Assembly: GCA_030248295.1 (NCBI GenBank)
Contig: JASANH010000299.1
Coordinates: 114,597-178,596 of the forward strand
DNA: 64,000 bases
Reading direction: 5' to 3'
Source of the DNA: Mesodorylaimus sp. YZB2_4
Lineage: Eukaryota; Nematoda; Enoplea; Dorylaimida; Dorylaimidae
In this document: one piece after another, positions 41,901 to 44,900 of the stretch
Layout: every line of letters starts with the position of its first letter
Numbering within the stretch: the stretch's first letter is position 1
Translations under genes and position numbers: made by a program
Notes under the pieces: model-generated
What the model saw: the letters and a program-made list of their open reading frames with translations, nothing else
Told to the model about the DNA's origin: nothing
Databases searched by the model: none

Positions 41901-44900
41901 GAAGTCACGTTGCCTCAGCAGGACGAGGACAGATCGACTGGCGCCGTCACTTTGCGAGTCTATTACGAATATTTTAGTGCCATGGCCAATTTCTGTGTGG
42001 TCGTATTCCTGCTGCTGTTCTGCTTTTTCGTTCAGGCGCTATTCAATTTCAGTGATTGGTGGTTGAATATTTGGTAAGACCGCCTGTTTGATGGTTGCTG
42101 GGGTGATTCTTTGGTTGGAACGGCATACATGGGGATATTGCATGTGAATTACCCGCCATTTTCAATTTTTAATTTCGTGACTGTCTGCATAAAAGTAAAG
42201 TTCGAGCAATAGGCTGTAGAGGAACGAGCGATGGTGAGGGTTTTGACGTGCGACCCTCATGCCCATACGTGGAGGGCGCAGTCAGTGCCCGCAGTCTATA
42301 TTATGCAATTAATGCAGTTTTGTCTGTCGTGGTTGCAGGACCACTCAAGCGGAGTACGAAGATCGGTTAAAACGTACAGCCGCCGGCAATACGACGACTT
42401 CGACAAGCAACGAGTCTTCGACGACAAATGTGGCACAGCCAGTCAACCAATTGGCGAATGTGACGGCGCCCAAGTTTTGGATTCCTGGCATCAATGAGCT
42501 GACTTCGGACGACTGCCTCAAGATCTATGCTGGTCTGACAGTGGCGCTGCTTTTGTTCAGTTTGGTCAGATCGTTGATATTTCGACACATGCTGACCCGA
42601 TCGTCGTTCACCCTGCACTCGAGAATGTTTCGAGCTGTTATTCGCACGCCCGTCATCTTTTTCGATCGCAATCCCATCGGTGAGTGGTTCGGGCCATTCG
42701 TTTGTTCGCTGGGGGTGGCAGACAGAAGAGTATTTTGGGGGAAAATCCTTTGCGTAGGAGAACTGAAAAGGAGACTGAAACATGAAACCAGCTGGTCTGA
42801 TGCTTTCCCTCACCACCCAAGAATGGTGGTTACGCTTGGGTCTAAGGCAGCGCGGGGATGCATCGCAAATGTAGTGCACTATCAAGTATGAGAGCAGCAC
42901 ATGTGTGCGGAGGCAGCTCGAGTTGCATGGGAAATTTTGCGCTCACACATACAGTCAGTCAGAGTCTCTGCAGGAGGGATTGAAAACTAGCGCTTGCGAG
43001 ATATGCAGTGGAACGAGGAATAAATTGTGCTGGGCACGTTCCTGATTTATGTCTTGATGCGCCACGTGTGGGATTGACATTGCTTCATTACTTTTCAGGA
43101 CGTATTCTTAACAGATTCTCCAAGGATACAGGCACGATGGATGGTAAGTTGGGCATGATTGTTTTGTTGCTGGGTCCTAACTGAATACCTTGTTTTTTCA
43201 GAATTGTTGGCCTTTGTCACATTTGATTTTATTCAAGTATGAGCCCTTGTTTTGTCTCAGCAGGCATTTTTAATTGTTTGGTTTCAGGGCCTGATTAGTT
43301 TCTTTGGTATTATTTTGGTTGTTTGCGTGATTAATCCGTGGATTTTCGTCCCCACGATTCCGTTGTTGTTGGCTTTCGTGGCTGTTCGATATTACTATAT
43401 GAAAACGGCGCGATCTGTGAAACGAATGGAGGCCACGAGTAAGCAGCTATGTGTTGAGAATAGAGCCTGTTTTGAGGTGGTTTTTGGATTTCAGCTAGAA
43501 GTCCGATATTTTCGCACGTGTCGGCCACGTTAAGCGGATTGACGACGATTCGTGCATTCGGAGCTTCGGCGTATGTGATTGCGGATTTCCATCGATACCA
43601 GGTGAGTTGGGGAGCTGGTTGAGGCTGGGGAATATTGGGTTTGCGTGACAGTGGGGCATGTATGTCCTTGATGGGGTGCTGAGTTTGAGTGAACTGTCCA
43701 TGCCTAGATCAGGCACAGCGAACTGTGTTCATAAAGACTGATCGTGTTCTGGGCTAATATTTTCTTTTGCAGAACATTCACTCGGCCGCCTTCAGCATCT
43801 TCTTGAGCAGCAGTCGTTGGTTCGCCATCTTCATCGATTGGCTGTGCGCCTCGTTCATCGGAGTGGTAGCCTTTGTGTGTGTGTTTACGGCGTCGGGTAA
43901 GTGCGTGATGAGTGATTGCTCGTTTGTGTATGTCCTCGTCTCGTGACTGTTCATGCTAGCTTGGTATTGAAGCTTGGGTTCTTTTGCAGAGAAAGGTACG
44001 AACGGTGGTGCCGTCGGTTTGTCACTGTTTTACGCCATGTCCTTGATGGGCTTCTTTCAATGGATTATTCGTCAGAGCACGGAAATGGAGAGCATGGTAC
44101 ACTGGTTTCTGTTTCTAAGGGTGAAGAGGAGACTTGGGAGGAACGCAATGGACCAGCTGGGTTGTGTTGTGGCCTTGCATGGGCGCGGTGTGGCTTGGCG
44201 GGGCTGACACTTGCATTGCTTGTGTGTGACTGTGGCACCTCGTCTCGTCTGTGTGCACTAGTCGATGTTGTTGATGTCATGTTTCTTGAAAGATTTAGTT
44301 TCTAAATGGACAAAGTTTTAGACCTGGGGCCAGGCAGCGTCGGCTTGAGCCTATTATATGGCATTTCGTTGACGCACTCCCTGGCACACTTTGTTAATCA
44401 GATATCGACCATGGAGAATTCGGTGGGTTGATCGTTTATTTTTAGATTTCTTTATGCTTTTCATAACTGGGGTTGGCTTAGGGCGCTTTGCAACTTTTCT
44501 TGGGTTTTAATCACGCTTCTAATTTCTTACACGCTTTTCTTCTGTGCATATTCGGATGGTGCATTGCGTTGCTGGGTTTTGAGTGGGGACGGGTACGGGG
44601 GGGGCGTAGGAAGACAAAGTTTATTGGTTGTGTTTGCAGATGGTTTGCGTGGAGCGGATCCTGGAATACAGTCGGTTGCCACCTGAAGCTGGATTGAATG
44701 TGCGCGAGAAGCAGAGGATCGAAGGCTCGGCAAAATTGCCCGATAGCTGGCCTGAGAAAGGGGAAATCGTATTCGATCACGTTTCAATGAAATACGGCGA
44801 GGATGGCCCGATTGTGCTGCACGATATTAATTTCGTGATTAAGCCGGCTGAAAAGGTGAGCAATCGAAAATGAGACTGTCTGATTTGGCGTTGAGGTGGG

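Follow-up and report, generated by a model that had tools for sequence, protein, structure and literature searches.

Substitution of homologous tandem exons is known in several genes of the ABCC family of pumps. Distinct events of this kind are described for D. melanogaster mrp, C. elegans mrp-1, and human ABCC9 in the excerpts of PMC9741552 used here, and excerpts of PMC7434440 ascribe several independent origins in different lineages to the mrp-1 kind of event. As in those excerpted accounts, the exon pair analyzed here (23a and 23b) consists of homologous tandem exons of an ABCC gene, of which one at a time would be used. The present gene is MRP4-like, however, and does not belong to the mrp/mrp-1/ABCC9 set, and its pair encodes the last transmembrane (TM) helix. 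In position, the pair may overlap with the excerpted events, which were compared by description and whose residues are unstated there. The original prediction, made from the sequence of this locus, knew of no such switch at this helix in an MRP4-like gene. That claim has to be trimmed, because tandem-exon substitution in fly, worm, and human ABCC genes is already on record in the same excerpts (PMC9741552 and PMC7434440); novelty may lie in the MRP4-like branch of the gene and in the exchange of the last TM helix, where central ligand contacts are made. Among the matches listed from open-licence PMC titles and abstracts on exons, ABCC splicing, or MRP4 residues, a pair of the 23a/23b type at the last helix of an MRP4-like gene is undescribed. 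PMC3303723, on mutually exclusive exons in insects, makes no mention of MRP, and ABCC exons were not found in the excerpts of PMC8956072.

Human MRP4 (ABCC4; PDB chains such as 8bjf) is the closest solved relative of the encoded protein in the two parts searched. According to excerpts of PMC10202912 and PMC11948813, its ligand contacts include H152, F156, F211, F324, L363, L367, F368, and R946, and those in TM12 are M990, G991, M992, Q994, W995, and R998. In the excerpts of PMC10202912, W995 forms stacking contacts with ligands, and R998 touches the acid group of PGE1; methotrexate transport is hit hardest by mutants of R946, Q994, W995, and R998 (excerpts of PMC11948813).

The transporter gene extends from 29644 to 47030 on the plus strand of the window (the whole 64-kb stretch of DNA that was analyzed) and has 28 exons when a single exon 23 is counted. 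The gene model contains 27 GT-AG introns, with splice sites picked by hand and spliced by script; in silico splicing gives a product of 1,494 amino acids with 23a and of 1,492 amino acids with 23b, neither interrupted by an internal stop. In searches of PDB sequences, residues 1 to 402 scored 355 bits against MRP4 structures, followed by CFTR as the next group (211.7 bits). The exon 22 to 24 region with 23a scored 117 to 119.5 bits against MRP4 structures versus 70.1 bits against ABCC5, and with 23b it scored up to 96.7 bits versus 66.4 bits against plant ABCC13. MRP4 is the best match ahead of other ABCC members in both parts searched within PDB, and by sequence the transporter is an MRP4-like ABCC protein. 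A homologue search of genome contigs returned six bacterial relatives only, at 25 to 38% identity, and a search of viral contigs returned no relatives. The gene's own genome gave 133 matches to the collagen family Col_cuticle_N, which went unmatched in 14 prokaryote control genomes and suggests that the animal is a nematode; Chitin_bind_4 matched neither this genome nor its controls, so that its lack of matches is no sign of absence.

Exon 23 encodes the last TM helix (TM12 of MRP4, TM17 of MRP1) and is present in two tandem copies on the plus strand. They lie between constitutive exon 22 (43773 to 43896), which holds the equivalent of MRP4 R946, and constitutive exon 24 (44640 to 44855), which leads on towards NBD2. 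Exon 23a (43990 to 44096; 107 bp) encodes a canonical MRP4-type TM12 and has a strong acceptor and a very weak donor (gtacac); exon 23b (44322 to 44422; 101 bp) encodes a diverged TM12 and has a weak acceptor and a weak donor (gtgggt). Both exons are entered in phase 1 and left in phase 0, so either can substitute for the other. Reading of the frame places a TGA inside 23b when both are joined in one mRNA and a stop in exon 24 when neither is included, and with a single exon 23, a or b, the frame runs on into exon 24. Exactly one exon 23 is therefore required, and mRNAs with both or neither, being out of frame, would be destroyed or nonfunctional.

The two peptides are identical at 12 of 34 aligned residues. 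Their Smith-Waterman score of 54 was matched by none of 20,000 shuffles (shuffle maximum, 48), and by this measure their likeness is above chance. When the peptides of all 28 exons and of 23b were searched against the whole window (hits to E of 5), the match between 23a and 23b (E of 0.001 and 8.5e-4) was the best of all off-site matches. The only other off-site matches in the window with E below 0.05 were of exon 14 with 58130 to 58201 (E of 0.007) and of exon 7 with 55152 to 55223 (E of 0.036); these two lie beyond the gene, on the minus strand. The original prediction had described two tandem exons with related peptides and either/or use dictated by the frame, and it was borne out in coordinates, splice dinucleotides, phases, peptides, relatedness, and the TGA on double inclusion, to which the stop on double skipping can now be added. 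The reading preferred here, to which a probability of roughly 78% is given, is that tandem duplication of the last-TM-helix exon in an MRP4-like ABCC gene gave rise to a mutually exclusive pair, with each mRNA using one member and with 23a and 23b each spliced in vivo.

A DNA search of the organism's own 145-Mb genome recovered the locus itself and a piece on contig C180, and nothing further. The 23a peptide likewise has one extra place in the genome, on C180, and the 23b peptide has its own place only. A recent local duplication or haplotype artifact was rejected on the basis of these searches. The piece on C180 (L044 3935-4184; G000:C180:114734-114983) is a decayed copy of 23a with 75% identity, together with approximately 24 bases of the intron before the exon and 127 bases of the intron after it. 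It contains several exon indels, its donor GT is changed to CT, and genome searches with this gene's exons gave no ABCC matches elsewhere on that contig; the piece is apparently a dispersed copy that is dead. This copy is less diverged from 23a than 23b is, yet it is already broken. As TACAC follows the exon end in both the copy and 23a, the weak 23a donor probably predates the copy and is no recent lesion. Exon 23a itself remains MRP4-like, and a donor that is weak yet long kept suits a regulated exon.

Among the genome's ABCC paralogue pieces, the highest score with exons 22 to 27 as the query went to one on C101 (53% identity). The ABCC1-type paralogues (C7, C101, C45, C54, and others) are, like this gene, ABCC pumps, and their TM17 ends in VERI-EY or similar. 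They differ in that TM17 appears to be split by an intron within the helix and in that no tandem copy was seen among the matches listed. Identity of 23b is about equal with 23a (12 of 34), MRP4 (12), MRP3 (12), and the six full rows from paralogues of the same genome (8 to 13 of 34). An ABCC1-type exon was considered as the source of 23b and not adopted; identity cannot fix the source within ABCC, and tandem position and shared phase favor 23a. Elsewhere in the genome, paralogue NBD2 pieces occur two per contig on C12, C101, C235, C402, and C613; the two share an orientation on C12 and C101 and face opposite ways on the other three contigs. This pairing suggests that other ABCC genes here expand through gene duplication.

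Splice-site strength was scored with a matrix built on the constitutive sites of the same gene (26 donors and 26 acceptors). The 23a donor (0.05 bits) is lower than all of these donors, and the 23b acceptor (2.4 bits) is lower than all of the acceptors. The 23b donor (4.15 bits) exceeds just 1 of the 26 constitutive donors and is better than that of 23a. Summed over both sites, 23b (6.6) falls under all 25 internal constitutive exons, the lowest of which scores 12.8, and 23a (13.2) exceeds only one of them. The productive junctions sum to 24.3 bits (22-23a), 15.3 bits (23a-24), 13.5 bits (22-23b), and 19.4 bits (23b-24), and the 25 constitutive introns scored all have at least 16.1 bits. The forbidden 23a-23b junction, at 2.5 bits, is the weakest scored. 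This weak-weak junction is a plausible basis for exclusion: the gene's weakest donor would meet its weakest acceptor, and each weak site would otherwise be matched with a stronger constant partner. The skip junction between exons 22 and 24 scores highest among the alternatives (26.4 bits), and its strength on paper implies that inclusion of one exon 23 needs active help. Two other routes to exclusion were considered. Steric exclusion through a short intron was rejected, since there are 225 bases between 23a and 23b and the five shortest constitutive introns have 51 to 55 bases, and mixed splice types probably do not apply, as 23a and 23b both have AG/GT ends, as do the remaining exons.

Pairing sequences in the intron from 44097 to 44321, proposed earlier as a possible enforcer of exclusion, yielded one marginal candidate. 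Putative arms at 44139 to 44162, between 23a and 23b, and at 44550 to 44573, between 23b and 24 (both plus strand), can form 21 of 24 pairs at -28.2 kcal/mol. Three intron pairs were tried, and 4 of 200 shuffles attained the ungapped score of this pairing. The stem is present in one of four folds, the one without the 3' end of the downstream intron, and is missing from all three folds that span that intron completely; the duplex energy of the two whole introns is ordinary, with 64 of 100 shuffles equally good. The pairing is treated as a candidate that would loop out 23b and draw the 23a donor towards exon 24, and it perhaps assists exclusion.

Three further features lie close to the pair. TGCATG, which we take to be an RBFOX-type motif, lies within the 23a-23b intron at 44176 to 44181 (plus strand) and may be there by chance, because the plus strand of the window contains 28 occurrences. 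A strong acceptor-like site (12.5 bits), with 44446 (plus strand) as the first base after it, is located 24 bases beyond the end of 23b and is possibly a decoy. At 43990 to 43995, a strong acceptor stands 6 bases before a donor-like site of fair strength (AAG/gtacga; 7.3 bits), and this could represent a recursive splice site or, ahead of 23b, a 6-base microexon that a hand count puts in frame.

The peptides were also compared with a TM17 profile of 16 ABCC helices, 4 from PDB alignments and 12 from paralogues of the same genome, with 23a and 23b excluded. Of the paralogues, 6 of 12 supplied the second half only, and loci without a recognizable TM17 were left out. Exon 23b retains a fit to this profile (21.3 bits, compared with 50.1 bits for 23a); the nine ungapped members score between 6.8 and 80.8 when each is tested against a profile without it, and the dead copy on C180 scores 6.6 with a hand-placed gap. 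Neutral decay of 23a was simulated down to the DNA identity that 23b shows, and the decayed copies that stayed open had a median of about -28 (all profile rows). The 23b score was reached by 0 of 3,000 of them with all rows, 0 of 3,000 with PDB rows, and 1 of 3,000 with the genome's own paralogues, and by 1 of 4,000 in an earlier run of the same simulation. With lesser divergence (70 of 102 bases kept), 0.7% of decays reached it. Starting from an ancestor with three MRP4-like residues of 23b, none of 3,000 did so in each of the three profile sets. The ancestor most favorable to neutrality, for which the better residue of 23a or 23b was taken at each site, raised the proportion to 1.4% (all rows), 0.9% (PDB rows), and 2.3% (own paralogues). 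This fit to the family, above that of neutral decays, makes it very probable that 23b went on serving as a working TM17 long after duplication, in a test that is blind to recent loss.

Recent loss is the essence of the rival that survives best, in which 23b was long a working alternative exon but has recently gone out of use, so that only 23a is now spliced in. The blindness of the family-fit test would let such a history pass, and the 23b acceptor, the weakest in the gene, and its weak donor agree with it. The splice dinucleotides, phase, and frame of 23b are still intact, however, and its donor beats that of 23a, which leaves a recent retirement of 23b improbable.

An old nonfunctional relic of 23a, open by luck, is a much poorer account of 23b. 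DNA identity between 23a and 23b is equal at the three codon positions (19, 18, and 18 of 34), and there is thus no excess of silent change, as expected of a relic; C180 carries a further copy of 23a that is clearly dead, and about 20% of the 102-base intron stretches in the gene are open in a given frame. Neutral survival of splice sites, frame, and openness has a chance of 0.7 to 2.3% for 23a decayed to 54% identity. Across settings, the chance of frame survival is 0.7 to 6%, hence not negligible, and it was not relied on alone. By codon use (1.87), 23b ranks within the top 1.2% of 1,958 open intron stretches and at the 15th percentile among coding ones, although copies of coding exons inherit such use. 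Against a relic stand the preserved frame and splice sites of 23b and its family fit, which exceeds that of neutral decays for three profile sets and three ancestors, with 2.3% as the worst case; a relic is accordingly very unlikely. That 23b is mainly a poison exon, whose joining to 23a brings in the stop and lowers pump levels, is just as hard to credit, since this use would depend on the weakest junction scored and would need no TM17-like reading frame, yet 23b has one.

If 23a and 23b are a mutually exclusive pair, the exchange would bear on the substrate pocket, the residues of which were mapped by hand via alignments to MRP4 structures. All eight pocket residues in constant exons are identical to those of human MRP4. 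Exon 23a, an MRP4-type helix, keeps five of the six TM12 residues, with F in place of M992. Exon 23b keeps none, having T, H, S, A, H, and N in place of M990, G991, M992, Q994, W995, and R998, and the totals are 13 of 14 with 23a and 8 of 14 with 23b. Given 12 of 34 identities between 23b and MRP4 overall, the chance of keeping none of the six is about 0.055 by our own arithmetic, a borderline value, and a complete loss of TM12 contacts beyond general divergence is suggestive.

The original prediction had placed Trp1174 and Arg1177 in 23a, which is correct when counted in isoform a, and His and Asn at these sites in 23b, which correspond to W995 to H and R998 to N in MRP4 numbering. It used TM17 of MRP1 for comparison; TM12 of MRP4 (Q994, W995, and R998) is the better yardstick, because MRP4 is the closest solved protein. 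Absence of the tryptophan or the arginine, which several paralogues in the same genome share, does not have to make 23b inactive, and the likeliest effect of the swap would be a different cargo preference. The further claim of two pumps with different pockets stands in its either/or use, its homology, and its pocket argument, which draw on sequence and published MRP4 structures; the production of both isoforms and a difference in their substrates are what we infer from these. Isoform b would have an altered pocket, with six TM12 residues changed and the other eight kept. The chances are about even that one MRP4-like gene switches substrate class by splicing, its constant parts keeping the MRP4 pocket and 23b replacing every TM12 contact. 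On this reading, 23b would remove the ligand-stacking tryptophan and the acid-binding arginine, and the MRP4 branch would have a splice-controlled cargo change of its own, distinct from the mrp-1 events.

Should both isoforms exist, the exchange would affect the very helix on which the central ligand contacts of the MRP4 structures lie. The pair would then be a naturally occurring test of how far a single helix determines the cargo of an ABCC pump and of how splicing can tune detoxification. It would also add to the repeated gain of mutually exclusive exons by ABCC genes in separate lineages.

The surroundings of the transporter gene contain other features recognized by eye. Directly upstream, at 26804 to 28544, is a possible small secreted-protein gene with a signal-like start, MVTLRLAAIIFVVTLTSTANG. 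The last intron contains a long inverted repeat at 45740 to 46177, one end of which is AAGGGAACATCGCCAACCGTTAAG and the other end its complement. This repeat looks like a MITE-type element, and a stretch at approximately 47453 to 47865 is related to it.
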